From Olivibacter domesticus (GTDB lineage: Bacteria; Bacteroidota; Bacteroidia; Sphingobacteriales; Sphingobacteriaceae), in assembly GCF_900109575.1 (NCBI RefSeq), contig NZ_FOAF01000001.1, positions 1,025,662 to 1,089,661 on the forward strand: 64,000 nt of DNA, read 5' to 3'. Every line of letters begins with the position of its first letter. Positions within the stretch are counted from its first letter, which is position 1. Shown one piece after another: positions 2,900 to 8,664 of the stretch. The notes under the pieces are model-generated. The model made no database searches. It saw only the letters and a list, made by a program, of their open reading frames with translations, and was not told where the DNA came from. The position numbers and the translations under genes were made by a program.

Positions 2900-3105
2900 T
2901 TTGATTATTTACGAAATACAATTTCATCTATCAATTCCTTTTTGCGATACATTATTGATAACGAATGAAGTGCCAAAGAAAAATTATTTCACACAATTAA
3001 TTGATTAATAACACTTTAACCAGACACTTTCAATAACAGAATGCGATGCCTTTTTACCATAATGAGAAGTTTTTATCAAAATGATAAAATAACATTAAAT
3101 TGCGA

Positions 3106-3142
3106 AACCAGAAGGTTTCGTTACATTTGTAACCATATAGTT
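3106..3142 (+). promoter_or_regulatory. Promoter with two ArsR-type operators, VOC/SRPBCC operon
   Basis: A -7 box TACATTTG (3122-3129) lies between two 12-bp inverted repeats of the form AACCnnnnGGTT: AACCAGAAGGTT at 3106-3117 and AACCATATAGTT at 3131-3142, centres 25 bp apart. The same arrangement recurs upstream of the arsR gene at 7305-7342, so both are probably bound by that repressor. Confidence 0.65.
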
Positions 3143-3176
3143 TCAGATAGTTAATAATTTAATAAAGAATCTTGTT

Positions 3177-3572
3177 ATGAGCAACAACATCACACCTTTC
3201 TTAATGTTCGAAGGGAAAGCAGAGGAAGCAATGAACCTTTATATCTCTTTATTTAGCCATAGCTCCGTTATAAAGCTAGAAAGATATGGCGTTAATGACG
3301 GAGAGATGGCAGGAAAAATCAAAATTGCTTATTTCGAACTAAATGGCCGAGAATATATGGCTATTGACAGTAACGTAAAACATGCATTCACCTTTACGCC
3401 CTCTTTCTCCTTATTTGTGGAGTGTGAAACGGAAAAAGAACTAACGCATTTCTTTAATAGTCTAACTAAGGAAGGAGAAGTGCTGATGCCACTTGATCAT
3501 TACGGTTTTAGTAAGAAATTTGCTTGGGTTAACGATCAATTCGGCATTAGCTGGCAATTAAATTTATCATAA
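3177..3572 (+). CDS. VOC-family (PhnB-like) protein
   Basis: A 131-residue protein of the PhnB / 3-demethylubiquinone-9 3-methyltransferase-like group of the vicinal oxygen chelate superfamily. The family start pattern is clear: ITPFLMFEGKAEEAMNLYISLF, followed by ELNGREYMAIDS and, at the C-terminus, a segment ending in GFSKKFAWVNDQFGISWQL. Such proteins are one- or two-module metal-binding or small-molecule-binding folds. Most lack a proven reaction, and I cannot assign a substrate. It is first in a two-gene operon (12-base gap) with an SRPBCC protein. It lies behind a promoter bearing the same palindromes as the arsR operon, so it is probably repressed by that regulator. Confidence 0.85.
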   Translation: MSNNITPFLMFEGKAEEAMNLYISLFSHSSVIKLERYGVNDGEMAGKIKIAYFELNGREYMAIDSNVKHAFTFTPSFSLFVECETEKELTHFFNSLTKEGEVLMPLDHYGFSKKFAWVNDQFGISWQLNLS

Positions 3573-3584
3573 AATAATAGTACT

Positions 3585-4430
3585 ATGAGTTTACAACCAT
3601 TAATAATCGAAAAGACGTATCAAACGTCCTTAGAAAGTGTATGGAAAGCGCTTACTGACAAAGATCAGATGAAAGAATGGTACTTTGAGTTGCAAGAATT
3701 TAAACCTGAAGTGGGTTTTGAATTTCAGTTCTACGGAGGAAGCGACGATAGGAAATTTTTACATATGTGTACGATAACGGAGGTTGAATTTCTTGCGAAG
3801 TTATCATATACATGGCGGTACAAAGATTATCCGGGTCAATCGATCGTCACGTTCGAACTCTTCAAGGAGTCGAAAAATAAAACTAGGCTAAAGCTAACCC
3901 ATACTGGCTTGGAAAGTTTCCCTCAAGACATAGAGAATTTTGCTATCGACAATTTTAGGACTGGTTGGAATTTTATTTTGGGAGAATCCCTTCCAAATTA
4001 TGTTGAAACGGCAACGGTCTCTAAATCCATTTCCATAAAAGCATCGGCACAATCGGTATGGAACATTTTATTGCATCCCAACAATCAATGGGGACAGGCA
4101 TTCGGAGAAGGAGCATTTATAGAAACAGATTGGCAGAAAGGGAGTCCAGTTATCTGGAAAGATATTGAAGGTAATATCGGTGCTAATGGAATCGTAATGG
4201 TAAATAATATTAATGACTACTTACAAGTTGGGTTTTACGATGAAGTTAATCCACCACAAGGCACACCACTAGGAAGTTATGTTGAGAAATTTAAAATCAC
4301 CGAAAATGAAGCTAATGAATGTATACTTCATATAGAGGCTGGCTTATTGTCTAAGAAGGATGTTTCCTTTCATAGTCAAATGTGGGATAAAGCATTAGAA
4401 ATTATGAAGACGCTCTCTGAAAAAAAATAA
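3585..4430 (+). CDS. Two-domain SRPBCC/AHSA1-like protein
   Basis: A 281-residue protein made of two START/Bet v1-like (SRPBCC, activator of Hsp90 ATPase homologue 1 type) modules. Residues about 5-140 begin IIEKTYQTSLESVWKALTDK and carry MKEWYFEL; residues about 145-280 begin SKSISIKASAQSVWNILL. The fold forms a hydrophobic ligand cavity, and bacterial members are often encoded beside ArsR regulators and PhnB-like proteins, as here. The reaction or ligand is unknown. It follows the VOC gene by 12 bases and a hairpin terminator follows it, so the two form one transcription unit. Confidence 0.88.
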   Translation: MSLQPLIIEKTYQTSLESVWKALTDKDQMKEWYFELQEFKPEVGFEFQFYGGSDDRKFLHMCTITEVEFLAKLSYTWRYKDYPGQSIVTFELFKESKNKTRLKLTHTGLESFPQDIENFAIDNFRTGWNFILGESLPNYVETATVSKSISIKASAQSVWNILLHPNNQWGQAFGEGAFIETDWQKGSPVIWKDIEGNIGANGIVMVNNINDYLQVGFYDEVNPPQGTPLGSYVEKFKITENEANECILHIEAGLLSKKDVSFHSQMWDKALEIMKTLSEKK

Positions 4431-4456
4431 AATTACTTTTAAATACATTCTTGTGT

Positions 4457-4485
4457 AAGGTGCCTCGATGGCACCTTTAATTTTA
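4457..4485 (+). terminator. Rho-independent terminator after the VOC/SRPBCC operon
   Basis: Inverted repeat AAGGTGCC (4457-4464) and GGCACCTT (4470-4477) with a 5-base loop, followed by a T-rich run. It lies 27 bases past the SRPBCC stop. Confidence 0.7.
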
Positions 4486-4768
4486 TAATATCTGTTGCCA
4501 ATCAGATTCACCATAATTAAAAAAACTTCTCGAAGGATATTGTCAGCCATTGCATTAAAAAAAAGAAATATTTTTTTGCAACGTTTTACAGTTTAAAGCG
4601 TCTATCCTATTAATAAGCGAACTAAATTGCCGTTTATTTAAATATAATTAATTCAGGATGCAGTTTTTATTCGTTAAAAAATATTTAAATGTTTTTCACC
4701 TAAATCTCATCTTACTCAAGTAGAACACGAGCTACTTTTAACTAAATCAAAAACAACAAAAACTTTAT
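4486..4768 (+). other. AT-rich gene-free stretch before the TonB-dependent receptor
   Basis: Very AT-rich leader region for the receptor at 4769. I find no clear TAnnTTTG box on the plus strand and no copy of the AACC/GGTT palindromes seen at the flanking SRPBCC operons. I see no credible gene in it. Confidence 0.5.
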
Positions 4769-7237
4769 ATGATCCACGTATTTTTACCTAAACCCACAAC
4801 AAATTTAAAATGCTTTACATACAGCTGCGCGCTTGCTATCATTTTAATGACGAGTTTCAGCTATAAAAGAACTTTCGCTCAGGAAAATCATATCATCAAC
4901 GGTCAAGTAAAAGATGAAACTAACGCACCGATAGATCTAGCGACCATTTCTCTCCTTAATCCTAAAGATTCCTCCTATATCCGCTCGGTATTTTCCAATG
5001 AGAAAGGGGTGTATGCGTTAAAATCCATACCACAAGGTAAGTATATTTTAGCTGCGACTATGATAGGCTACAGAAAAACCTATGTGAAAGTAGAAGTAAA
5101 CCAAGAACAAAATATAAATGCTTCCGATTTAGTACTTCCACTTGAAGCGAAAGCACTGGGAGAAGTCACCATAACAGCCAAAACCCCACCTGTGGAGAGA
5201 AAAGACGGTGCATTAGTGGTAAACGTTGAAAATTCAGCATTGGCAGCGGGGAATACAGCTATGGACATATTACAACGTTCGCCTGGCGTCAGCGTCGATA
5301 AGGATGGAAACATAAGTTTGATGGGAAAACAAGGCGTAACAGTTATGTTAGATGGAAAACAAACCTACTTATCTGCAGAACAATTGGCTAATATGTTACG
5401 TGCAATGGATGGCAATAATATACAATCTATTGAATTAAACACAAATCCTTCAGCTAAATACGATGCGGCAGGCACTGCTGGTATCATTAATATCAAGTTA
5501 AAAAAGAACAAATTAGAAGGCACAAATGGAACACTTAGTTTAAGTGCAGGATACGGTAAAACGCATAAGTCTAACAATTCTTTACAAATCAATCATAAAG
5601 TAGGAAAAGTCAACTTGTTTGGTAATTACAGCTATGTTAATAATGGCTTTAATAGTGGTTTAGAGCTTTATCGGACCATTGGTCAAGGTGAAGATGCTAA
5701 AGTTTTTGATCAATATGCCCAATTTGAAAACAGGCGTGCAAGCAGTAATGCGCGGTTGGGCATTGATTATCAAACAAGTGATAGAAATACCCTCAGCGCA
5801 TTGTTCTCTGGCTTTTTCATGAATGGGAAAGACGAATCAAACAGTAACAACTATATCTCAGATATCGGCTCATCGCTTGATTCTACATTAACAACATTGA
5901 ATAGAGGAAATAATAAATATAATAGTTTAACATTTAACATCAATAATACTTTCAATATAGATACCTTAGGAAAGAAGCTTGTGATAGAAGCAGATATATC
6001 TCGTTTTAATGATAAAACGAAAAACTTTTACGATAATTTTTTTTACAACCCTTCCGGCGGTTATATTCGTGATCCAGAATTTATCTTAAATGATATGCCT
6101 TCCACCATTAATATTCAAACAGCTAAAGCTGATTATACACATCCTTTTAGTAAAAAAAACAAGTTGGAAGTTGGCGCAAAATACGGCAATGTAAAAAGTG
6201 ATAATAACATGGGTTTTCTTAATCTTATTGATGGAAATTGGCAAAACAACGAGGGGCGTTCCAATCATTTTGTATATACCGAACGTGTCACAGCTGCATA
6301 TGCAATATTTAGTCAACAATTGAATAAAACAGAAGTTAAAACAGGTTTACGTATGGAACATACCTACTCGGATGGTAATTCTATTACAATGAACGTTCGA
6401 AATAAACGCGACTATCTCAATTTTTTTCCCAACATAAGTATCAATCAAGAACTATCTAATAAACATAGTTTAGGTATTTCTTATAGTAGACGTATTAATC
6501 GACCAAATTATAGTAATTTAAATCCATTTCTATATTATGTAGATCCTTATAGTTATCAGCAAGGGAATCCATTTTTGAATCCTTCTTTTACCAATTCGTA
6601 TGAGCTAACCTACACGTTATTGAAAAAGTACAATGTTACAGCGGGCTACCAAAAAACAAAAGATATGGTAGGAGAAATCATGTATCAGAATGACGAAACA
6701 AATGTATTGTACGTTACCAGAGAAAATATTGCTAGTGAGAACGTGTACTTTGTAAACATAAATGTGCCAATAGCAATTGGAGAGTTTTGGAGTAGTAATA
6801 CAAACCTAAATGCATTGCATTTGGGATATAAAGCCGAAATTCCAACCGCTCCAATAGATTATGGCCAGTTTGGCTTACAGGCAAATAGTAACCATACATT
6901 TAATATTAGTAAAAGTCTACGCGTAGAGGCGACGGCACAATACCAATCCCCATTGAGGTGGAGTATTTACCAAATCGGTTCATATTGGGGCTTGGATCTT
7001 GGTGTAAATAAGTCTTTTTTGGATAAAAAAGCACAAATAAAATTAGCTATAACCGATATTTTTAGCACAATGCCAAATACTGTACGAACTAACTATGCCA
7101 ACCTTAATGTACGAATTATAAATAATTATGAAAGTCGTGTAGCTCGTTTAACGTTCACTTACAACTTCGGAAACCAAAAGTTAAAAACATCACAACGTAA
7201 CCTAGATAGTACCGAAAAAAACCGAGTGGGTAAATGA
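4769..7237 (+). CDS. TonB-dependent receptor, outer-membrane beta-barrel family
   Basis: An 822-residue outer-membrane protein. After a signal peptide (cleavage near TFAQE, about residue 38) comes a carboxypeptidase-regulatory-like beta-sandwich (about 40-120, with VKDETNAPIDLATISLLNP), then a plug-like region (about 135-240, with RSPGVSVDKDGNISLMGKQG and the NPSAKYDAAGTAGIINIKL signature), then a large C-terminal barrel (about 250-800). The plug/barrel type matches the OMP_b-brl_3 group rather than SusC: no SusD partner follows and the length is shorter. Ligand unknown. It sits between the two SRPBCC operons but lacks their operator and has its own terminator. Its unusually long n-region is the first ATG in frame, and the start may be a little downstream. 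Confidence 0.88.
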   Translation: MIHVFLPKPTTNLKCFTYSCALAIILMTSFSYKRTFAQENHIINGQVKDETNAPIDLATISLLNPKDSSYIRSVFSNEKGVYALKSIPQGKYILAATMIGYRKTYVKVEVNQEQNINASDLVLPLEAKALGEVTITAKTPPVERKDGALVVNVENSALAAGNTAMDILQRSPGVSVDKDGNISLMGKQGVTVMLDGKQTYLSAEQLANMLRAMDGNNIQSIELNTNPSAKYDAAGTAGIINIKLKKNKLEGTNGTLSLSAGYGKTHKSNNSLQINHKVGKVNLFGNYSYVNNGFNSGLELYRTIGQGEDAKVFDQYAQFENRRASSNARLGIDYQTSDRNTLSALFSGFFMNGKDESNSNNYISDIGSSLDSTLTTLNRGNNKYNSLTFNINNTFNIDTLGKKLVIEADISRFNDKTKNFYDNFFYNPSGGYIRDPEFILNDMPSTINIQTAKADYTHPFSKKNKLEVGAKYGNVKSDNNMGFLNLIDGNWQNNEGRSNHFVYTERVTAAYAIFSQQLNKTEVKTGLRMEHTYSDGNSITMNVRNKRDYLNFFPNISINQELSNKHSLGISYSRRINRPNYSNLNPFLYYVDPYSYQQGNPFLNPSFTNSYELTYTLLKKYNVTAGYQKTKDMVGEIMYQNDETNVLYVTRENIASENVYFVNINVPIAIGEFWSSNTNLNALHLGYKAEIPTAPIDYGQFGLQANSNHTFNISKSLRVEATAQYQSPLRWSIYQIGSYWGLDLGVNKSFLDKKAQIKLAITDIFSTMPNTVRTNYANLNVRIINNYESRVARLTFTYNFGNQKLKTSQRNLDSTEKNRVGK

Positions 7238-7256
7238 TAAAACAATCCATTCATTT

Positions 7257-7288
7257 AGCTGACATTAATAAGGTGTCAGCTTTTTTTT
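7257..7288 (+). terminator. Strong rho-independent terminator after the TonB receptor
   Basis: Perfect 8-bp stem AGCTGACA (7257-7264) with TGTCAGCT (7274-7281), 9-base loop, followed directly by a run of eight T. Confidence 0.9.
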
Positions 7289-7304
7289 AAAAAATAATTT
7301 GCGT

Positions 7305-7342
7305 AACCGAATGGTTTCTCATATATTTGAAACTAAATGGTT
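7305..7342 (+). promoter_or_regulatory. Promoter with two operators, arsR-SRPBCC operon
   Basis: A -7 box TATATTTG (7322-7329) is flanked by AACCGAATGGTT (7305-7316) and AACTAAATGGTT (7331-7342), centres 26 bp apart. The preceding four bases (TGCG, 7300-7303) also match the 3101 copy. The predicted transcription start near 7336 rules out the longest open frame's start at 7299. Confidence 0.7.
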
Positions 7343-7358
7343 ACTAATTAAAACAATA

Positions 7359-7670
7359 TTGGAAACGAGAAGAGATGTATTTCAGGCAATAGCCGATCCT
7401 ACTAGAAGGGCAATTATTCATTTGATTGCTCAACAACCACTTAATTTAAATGCCGTGGCTGATAATTTCGACATCAGTCGTCCAGCTGTTTCGAAACATA
7501 TCCGAATTTTAACAGAATGCGGACTGATTATAATAAAAAAACAAGGACGAGAACGTTTTTGTAATGCTAATTTAAAATCGCTGCGTGAAGTAGCCGATTG
7601 GGTAGCACATTATCAATTATTTTGGACCGATCGTTTAAATGCATTAGAAGATCTATTAAAGAATGAATAA
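7359..7670 (+). CDS. ArsR-family winged-helix repressor
   Basis: A 103-residue regulator, beginning at a TTG codon. The reading frame is open further upstream to 7299, but that part overlaps the promoter and operator, and family members start right at this point (METRRDVFQAIADPTRRAII). The winged helix spans about residues 8-85, with the recognition helix in ISRPAVSKHIRILTECGLI and the wing in IIKKQGRERFC. No cysteine pair typical of metal sensors is seen, as in the ArsR subgroup linked to SRPBCC proteins. It is first in a three-gene operon with two SRPBCC genes and probably represses its own operon and the one at 3177. Confidence 0.9.
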   Translation: METRRDVFQAIADPTRRAIIHLIAQQPLNLNAVADNFDISRPAVSKHIRILTECGLIIIKKQGRERFCNANLKSLREVADWVAHYQLFWTDRLNALEDLLKNE

Positions 7671-7691: not shown

Positions 7692-8120
7692 ATGTATCAA
7701 ATAACAACTATGAATTATATTAATTCATCTATTGAAACCGTTTATAAAAGTTTAACCAGTAATGAAGGGTTATCAGCAGTATGGACTACAGATTGCCAAG
7801 TTAAAAATAAGGTAGGTGAAACTTCTATTTTCGGTTTTGGCAATGAAGAACCTACCGTATTTAGAATTGTGGAATTAATTCCCAACAAGGAGATAACTTG
7901 GATCTGTACAGATTCTGATCCTGAATGGATCGGTACTCAAGTATCTTTTGAACTTAAATACCATAATGGAAAAACAGCAATAACACTTGTACATAGTGGA
8001 TGGAAGAGTCCAAGTGAGTTTTTTTGTTGGTGTAGTTATAACTGGTCGTTCTTTCTCTACAGCTTAAAATTATTTTGTGAAGATGGCAAAGGAATTCCCT
8101 TTCAAGAACGTAGATTTTAA
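7692..8120 (+). CDS. SRPBCC/AHSA1-like protein
   Basis: A 142-residue single-domain SRPBCC (AHSA1-type) protein. It begins ITTMNYINSSIETVYKSLTS, has the central GLSAVWTTD segment, and ends with the aromatic-rich helix SYNWSFFLYSLKLFCEDGKG. The fold binds hydrophobic ligands; the reaction is unknown. It sits 21 bases after arsR and 13 bases before another SRPBCC gene, so it is co-transcribed. A second in-frame ATG six codons in is an alternative start. Confidence 0.85.
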   Translation: MYQITTMNYINSSIETVYKSLTSNEGLSAVWTTDCQVKNKVGETSIFGFGNEEPTVFRIVELIPNKEITWICTDSDPEWIGTQVSFELKYHNGKTAITLVHSGWKSPSEFFCWCSYNWSFFLYSLKLFCEDGKGIPFQERRF

Positions 8121-8133
8121 CTAGTTAAAGATT

Positions 8134-8664
8134 ATGAATAATCAAGGAGAAATTATTGCACCAGGCACATTGCGTTTTAAGCGATTATTACCTGGATCTA
8201 TCGAAAAAGTGTGGTCATATTTAACCGATTCCGAAAAAAGAGGTAAATGGTTAGCAAAAGGCAGTATGGAATTATATGTTGGAGGTAAAGTGGAGTTACA
8301 TTTTTTCCATGCAGATCTCTCACCCCATAAAGAAACACCCCCAGCTAAATACAAGTGCTATGAGACGGGAGATAGCATTTCTGGAGAGGTAATTGCCTGC
8401 TTCCCTCCTAGGCTGCTGAGCTTTACTTGGGGAGACCATTCTGAAGTGACCTTTGAATTAAGCGAACAGGAAAATAATTTAATACTTTTAATCCTGACTC
8501 ACCGTAAGATAGAAGATAAAATAGATACGCGCATTAGTATTGCAAGCGGGTGGCACACGCATTTGGGAATTTTAGATGCTCATTTAAATGACCGCATACC
8601 CGATGGCTTTTGGGAAGTTCACAACAAAATGGAAAAGGAATATGGCACGCTATTTTCAAAATAA
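8134..8664 (+). CDS. SRPBCC/AHSA1-like protein
   Basis: A 176-residue SRPBCC-family protein. The family pattern is visible as LRFKRLLPGSIEKVWSYLTD, KRGKWLAKGSMEL, then PRLLSFTWGDHSEVTFELSE and a C-terminal helix beginning SIASGWHTHLGILDAHL. It resembles the ATPase-activator-like proteins often encoded with ArsR regulators. It is the last gene of the arsR operon (13-base gap) and may act on the same unknown compound as its neighbours. Confidence 0.87.
   Translation: MNNQGEIIAPGTLRFKRLLPGSIEKVWSYLTDSEKRGKWLAKGSMELYVGGKVELHFFHADLSPHKETPPAKYKCYETGDSISGEVIACFPPRLLSFTWGDHSEVTFELSEQENNLILLILTHRKIEDKIDTRISIASGWHTHLGILDAHLNDRIPDGFWEVHNKMEKEYGTLFSK

Follow-up and report, generated by a model that had tools for sequence, protein, structure and literature searches.

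Matched double operators at two AHSA1/SRPBCC operons of Olivibacter domesticus, their recurrence in Bacteroidota and the probable part of an ArsR-type repressor

Two promoters of the window (the whole 64,000-nucleotide stretch of Olivibacter domesticus DNA that was analysed, with positions counted from its first letter), at 3101 and 7300 (P1 and P2), carry the same pair of palindromic operators around a TAnnTTTG box, and this observation was confirmed. The ArsR-type protein encoded at 7359–7670 (ArsR1) quite probably represses its own operon and the operon at 3177–4430 through these double operators, and the paralogues of this protein would be partly separated by residues 42, 43 and 46. The earlier interpretation, in which a single ArsR repressor linked both operons, was probably right on the link and too narrow on the repressor.

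Both promoters lie on the forward strand and were read directly on the sequence. In P1 the -33 element TTG (3100–3102, identified with the consensus) is followed by operator 1, GAAACCagaaGGTTTC (3104–3119), which lies within the -33/-7 spacer, by the -7 box TACATTTG (3122–3129) and by operator 2, GTAACCatatAGTTTC (3129–3144). The corresponding elements of P2 are the -33 element TTTG (7298–7301), operator 1, GTAACCgaatGGTTTC (7303–7318), the -7 box TATATTTG (7322–7329) and operator 2, GAAACTaaatGGTTAC (7329–7344), both operators being also returned by the operator finder. The 12-bp dyad cores are AACCagaaGGTT (3106–3117) and AACCatatAGTT (3131–3142) in P1, with centres 25 bp apart, and AACCgaatGGTT (7305–7316) and AACTaaatGGTT (7331–7342) in P2, with centres 26 bp apart; the full dyad of both promoters is 16 bp long and reads GnAACY-N4-RGTTnC. 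In both, dyad 1 fills the spacer and dyad 2 has the final G of the -7 box as its first base. This near identity, with two palindromes around the box, had been described in the earlier note, and the centre spacings took the same values on re-reading; the box said to follow 5–6 bases later does so if the count is made to its first base, the gap itself being 4 bases in P1 and 5 in P2.

Promoters of Bacteroidota have a -33 TTG or TTTG and a -7 TAnnTTTG, with a spacing of about 19–21. Both elements are present at P1 and P2, with spacers of 19 and 20 bases as counted on the sequence, and they are predicted promoters of this type. The TGCG common to the two can be read as the last bases of the -33 element together with the operator's outer G, with no separate element. 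The half-sites of P1 are GAAACC, GAAACC, GTAACC and GAAACT, with A or T at base 2 in all four. The relaxed pair (AACY-N4-RGTT twice, 8–20 apart) was found at 2 places in the window; 40 first-order resamplings gave an expectation of 0.025.

The operon behind P1 consists of a gene for a VOC-type protein (PF06983; 3177–3572, +), assigned by profile match, and one for an AHSA1/SRPBCC protein of 281 aa (3585–4430, +), assigned by profile match and by its context in relatives; the latter has an N-terminal AHSA1 domain and a second half with a weak Polyketide_cyc2 match. Behind P2, ArsR1 (103 aa, TTG start; 7359–7670, +; profile match and structure model) is followed by two genes for AHSA1/SRPBCC proteins (7692–8120 and 8134–8664, both +; profile matches). 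The three AHSA1 products passed the PF08327 cut-off of 22.1 bits, with 78.4 (3585), 43.7 (7692) and 49.6 (8134). The statement that both promoters drive AHSA1/SRPBCC genes stands in so far as both operons contain them; the first genes are the VOC-type gene at P1 and the arsR gene at P2. As previously noted, the regulator occurs in one operon only. Between the operons lies a gene for an outer-membrane beta-barrel protein (4769–7237, +; profile match), which is not counted in the regulon and at which the window scan returned no operator pair. Terminator-like hairpins behind the P1 operon (4457–4477, +) and just 5' of P2 (7257–7281, +) separate both operons from this gene; they are weak consensus matches, since the region contains 4 such hairpins where shuffled sequence gives 2.6. 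Upstream in the window, on the reverse strand, 1645–2769 encodes a 374-aa protein whose sole Pfam match is the KdpD sensor domain (PF02702), and by eye the adjoining gene resembles a histidine kinase gene.

ArsR1 passed the ArsR/SmtB cut-offs of NF033788 (70.7 bits vs 55), PF12840 (45.4 vs 27) and PF01022 (43.7 vs 22). Its structure model (mean pLDDT 90.7) has the helices 14–25, 30–34 and 41–53 and the strands 57–62 and 65–70 of a winged helix-turn-helix fold; the recognition helix is 41–53, with P42, A43 and K46, and the best PDB match was 3f6o (TM 0.75 by query length). Inspection by eye did not reveal a CxC motif in the third helix. Cys54, just past the recognition helix, is present in 242/272 relatives and Cys68 in 153/272, and the two form a possible candidate sensing site.

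The genome (6.78 Mb, 23 contigs) contains four matches to ArsR1, namely itself and three at 64, 53 and 50% identity, and all four paralogues carry the same promoter design. The dyads of ArsR3 read GTAGT (one arm GTAGC) where the others have GnAAC, and in ArsR2's own promoter base 2 is C in each of the four operator arms. A loose pair searched over the 6.8 Mb matched 3 places, as did the reversed-pattern control, so that the loose pair alone is not distinctive and was dropped as evidence without the -7 box; a TAnnTTTG box lay between the dyads at all 3 real places. The genome-wide search for operator pairs flanking the box, as proposed in the earlier note, recovered P1, P2 and the promoter of ArsR4 without mismatch, that of an AHSA1 gene on contig C17 with 1 mismatch and that of ArsR2 with 2. 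The corrected patterns at up to 3 mismatches were no commoner than their reversed controls (13 and 12 vs 15 and 11; 9 and 8 vs 11 and 11), and the follow-up was therefore limited to matches with 0–1 mismatch or lying before an ArsR or AHSA1 gene.

The AHSA1 gene on C17 (G000:C17:133576-133613; L014:1501-1538), with no ArsR gene in the fetched 3 kb, is a candidate third member of the regulon of ArsR1 type. The downstream dyad of its promoter, GTAACCaaatGGTTTC, is a perfect one of ArsR1 type and the upstream one is degenerate; the site scored 24.9 bits with the matrix of the ArsR1 class, 13.4 with that of ArsR4, 8.0 with that of ArsR2 and -15.0 with that of ArsR3.

The arrangement recurs in relatives. 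The strict pattern TTTGnnnAACn6GTT-N4-6-TAnnTTTGnAACn6GTT was present in 77/301 family genomes, from 14/25 genera, and the reversed pattern in 0/301. Among the 30 strict-pattern loci with fetched DNA, 27 lay directly before an ArsR gene, two (L127 and L153) had the ArsR gene about 0.4 kb downstream, and one (L138) preceded an AHSA1 gene with no ArsR; the pair stood before unrelated genes, the case that the earlier note had given as contrary to its proposal, at none of these 30. In L127 (1501–2000) the usual gene order is reversed: the double operator is followed first by an AHSA1-like gene, recognised by eye, and then by ArsR. A search for regulator-less targets with a fixed 4-base gap, which is narrow and was kept out of the prevalence, matched 3/301 genomes.

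A promoter-anchored finder was applied to ArsR upstream regions, which places dyad 2 within 0–2 bases of the -7 box end and dyad 1 2–7 bases before the box and uses no protein information. It replaced a simple dyad finder, which had returned a pair in 60/84, several of them mis-paired, including the window's own. Of 205 upstream regions, taken from all sources with duplicates included, 180 had an operator pair whose score exceeded the 99th percentile (18.5) of first-order resamplings; 29 of the 205 were obtained through the operator pattern in family genomes and lean to AAC operators. The full TAnnTTTG box was present in 181/223 ArsR loci, and 26 bp was the commonest distance between dyad centres (174/223), a count partly shaped by the finder limits. 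First downstream ORFs were found at 70 of the 80 loci of named relatives, the other 10 giving none; 69 were scanned, two of these being the ArsR frame itself, and 59/69 matched AHSA1. Over all scanned downstream proteins, three of which are the window's own, the proportion was 62/72. ArsR-AHSA1 operons thus recur across the Bacteroidota genomes examined. One locus left unpaired by the finder, L105, has an ArsR helix SRPTISEHI (about 5940–6000) and, by eye, a different dyad, gtcgggatttgccgac; it possibly represents a further specificity class with E46.

Within the half-site 5'-G1 n2 A3 n4 n5 n6, residues 42, 43 and 46 of the ArsR helix covary with bases 2, 4 and 5: Q42 goes with C at base 2, T43 with G at base 4, and L or Q46 with G at base 5. 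The rule was derived from the upstream regions of the 80 named relatives and the four own genes, with the helix motif S-R-42-43-[VI]-S-46-H, and was written down before the helices and upstream regions of the remaining sets were read. In the family hold-out (operator in 68/79 loci), which was partly not blind, as the operator strings, but not the helices, of some of the same genomes were already out and L156–L184 had already been retrieved, but not read, when the rule was set down, half-sites with P42 had T 96, A 11 and C 1, and those with Q42 had C 136, A 23 and T 1; A43 had A in 160/160 and T43 had G 103 and A 1; A43 with K46 had C 96, T 10 and A 2, and L46 had G in 44/48. The phylum hold-out (operator in 57/88 loci) gave T 113 and A 3 for P42, C 96 and A 16 for Q42, A in 172/172 for A43, G 50 and A 2 for T43, G 15 and T 1 for Q46, G in 4/4 for L46, and C 114, T 13 and A 1 for A43 with K46. 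R46 behind A43 had C in 24/24 there, and the one R46 locus of the family set had T 3 and C 1; the rules for R46 and for V46 (one locus) are tentative. Q42 together with Q46, a combination first met in the phylum hold-out at one locus, had GCAAG as the rule says. Among the 31 of 88 phylum loci that were dropped, several distant ones (e.g., with SLAAVSKHL helices) had no pair and some P42 loci had the downstream dyad only.

The three-position class agreed in 221/223 loci, the two exceptions (L218 and L228) being TRQAISKHL proteins with an A-rich base 2. These 223 loci are what remains of 281 deduplicated ArsR loci after removal of 58 with no operator pair above threshold or no recognised helix motif; L098 and L114, which have no recognised helix motif, do have GTAAC pairs. 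The association of Q42 with C is good for the inner arms, and the outer arms of the TRQxxSKHL class have mostly A (19/23 and 16/23). In the 38 genomes with several paralogues, 97/99 paralogues matched; when the operators were shuffled within genomes 2000 times, the number that matched averaged 45.9 and never exceeded 64.

The covariation is observed; that residues 42, 43 and 46 contact bases 2, 4 and 5 we infer from it. The correlation might instead be inherited clade structure, operators and helices having been fixed once in a few clades, which we consider rather unlikely. On a tree built with the helix removed, the best tree had 6, 1 and 7 changes for positions 42, 43 and 46, branch support was weak and independent pairs on well-supported branches numbered 2, 1 and 1, for which a sign test was not significant (222/223 rows; a further tree was built on 165 rows from 193 deduplicated); with so few changes, the correlation of position 43 could be a single inherited event, and N31 and W81 correlate with base 4 almost as well (0.78 and 0.72 of the entropy, against 0.86 for position 43, the best column). 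Inheritance of this kind accounts less well for bases 2 and 5, for which the best columns are P42 (0.67; next 0.39) and K46 (0.44; next 0.37), and for the combinations PAK, QAK, PAQ, QAL, PTK, QTK and, once, QAQ, each found with matching bases. The wider reading, that Bacteroidota hold a branch of ArsR proteins with a near-discrete code of three residues and three bases, by which several paralogues use one promoter scaffold with reduced cross-talk, is given an even chance. The separation is partial by class, as ArsR2 and ArsR4 share one three-position class, and so do pairs of paralogues in G042 and G025, two genomes with five ArsR paralogues with operators each.

Because this promoter design is common to four paralogues, the matched pair is not enough to identify the repressor of the 3101 operon, and the proposal that one ArsR links both operons cannot be carried by that pair. 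With the class matrices, P1 scored 36.5 bits for ArsR1, 32.2 for ArsR4, 28.0 for ArsR2 and -7.2 for ArsR3, so that ArsR1 appears as the best fit of the four, by a modest difference of about 4 bits over the ArsR4 class. Control of the 3101 operon by a paralogue, most likely ArsR4 and otherwise ArsR2, or by several ArsR proteins jointly, in which case the two operons would not form one regulon, is unlikely. The score for the ArsR4 class and the common design speak for it, and the 12-bp core of P1 operator 2, AACCATATAGTT, is the same as that of ArsR2's operator 2; base 2 of the arms differs, as P1 has none of the C that ArsR2 has in its four arms. The inner arms of the ArsR4 class have C at base 2 in 22/23 and 21/23 loci, where P1 has A and T.

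The context of the 3585 gene also points to the ArsR1 lineage and away from a paralogue. A homologue of this gene was present in 46/121 genomes including G000, and among the best 29 of the 47 matches outside G000, 17 lay directly behind a same-strand ArsR gene. The operators of these 17 ArsR genes were of mixed types (GnAAC in 7, GCAAG in 5, GTAAG in 1 and no pair above the cut in 4), and therefore the gene is linked to the ArsR lineage and not to the P42 class alone. Of the full-length homologues, 5/7 adjoin ArsR, and the other two (L274 and L278) have no ArsR gene or operator pair in the fetched flanks. These data suggest a split, in this genome, of an ancestral ArsR-AHSA1 operon, with the detached part under a double operator of its own. 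Regulation of both operons by the ArsR encoded at 7359, to which base 2, the bit scores and the gene context point, is thus retained as the probable link.

A second regulator-less target was found in G140. There an operator pair precedes a gene for a 142-aa AHSA1 protein that shares 50% identity with the first half of the protein encoded at 3585, and the 3 kb fetched around it contain no ArsR gene. The single family ArsR match of this genome has T42 and Y45, and our guess of a P42 repressor was wrong. The arms are ACAACC, GTAACC, GAAACC and GTAACC at the ArsR gene and GAAACC, GTAACC, GAAACC and GTAACC at the target, and these near-identical letters support regulation in trans in G140. Three other loci with A or T at 42 and Y45 carry GAAAC, unlike the mixture of G140.

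Most likely, ArsR1 is a winged-helix repressor that acts as a homodimer and would bind two 16-bp dyads at each promoter. With the dyads tied to the -33 and -7 elements, a dimer on each would shut out the polymerase on either side of the -7 box; at a centre distance of 26 bp, about two and a half turns, the two would lie on roughly opposite faces. ArsR1 would thereby repress its own operon (ArsR and two AHSA1 proteins) and act in trans on the VOC-AHSA1 operon at 3177–4430, with the AHSA1 gene on contig C17 as a possible further target, until released by a small molecule or a stress signal; the three other paralogues, of the same design, would be told apart at least partly by residues 42, 43 and 46. 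The bracketing of the -7 box by an ArsR-type protein, proposed in the earlier note, is supported on the sequence as regards the placement of the double operator; binding, occupancy by dimers, repression and action in trans are what we infer. That the dyads are activator sites, or sites of a different factor, with ArsR1 not acting there, is very improbable, because the dyad sequence goes with the helix residues of the adjacent ArsR, both in 221/223 loci and within genomes, and the sites overlap the core promoter, in general an unusual place for an activator. A chance match of the two promoter regions, to which the equal genome-wide counts of the loose pair and its control would lend some colour, is practically negligible in view of the 0.025 relaxed pairs expected per window and the absence of the reversed strict pattern from all 301 genomes, 77 of which have the strict one.

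These results extend the observation on two promoters to the phylum, as a double operator embedded in the promoter together with a code linking residues to bases. They yield candidate operators for a branch of ArsR proteins, a rule of help in deciding which paralogue an orphan promoter belongs to, and a compact natural data set on how winged helices recognise DNA. If the code held true in vitro, the operators of uncharacterised members, and the genes they regulate in trans, could be predicted from sequence and orthogonal repressors selected. Among titles and abstract openings of the open-licence literature, no operator study of ArsR-AHSA1 operons was found, nor a residue-base code for ArsR, which is weak evidence of absence.

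ArsR1 resembles the ArsR/SmtB repressors (NF033788, PF01022, PF12840) in its profile scores, its size, its winged-helix fold and its place next to likely target genes; the system differs from them in that its two dyads stand in register with the -33 and -7 elements of a promoter of Bacteroidota type and in that no CxC was seen in the third helix. In SdpR systems the partner is an SdpI-type immunity protein. The SdpR-type autorepressors (NF033789) are the second-best NCBIfam match of ArsR1, at 63.4 bits under the curated cut-off of 100, and the partner genes of ArsR1 encode AHSA1 proteins instead. NolR (4omy, 4omz) matches the fold of ArsR1, with 18% identity over the fold alignment. In the passages of PMC8960804 on NolR and RexT, Gln56, at the N-terminus of helix 4 of NolR, makes contact with A or T, Lys50 of RexT is its counterpart, and the NolR motif is (A/T)TTAG-N9-A(T/A); unlike here, a family-wide residue-base code does not appear in those passages. 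Residue-base correlations derived from genomes are in print for the MerR and IclR families (PMC8222616, PMC5045206), with the word ArsR occurring once in the available text of PMC8222616 and not in that of PMC5045206, and a code for the LacI family was obtained by comparative genomics (PMC4052901). As far as the available parts of these papers go, the LacI, MerR and IclR codes are the same kind of correlation as the one described here, in other families.
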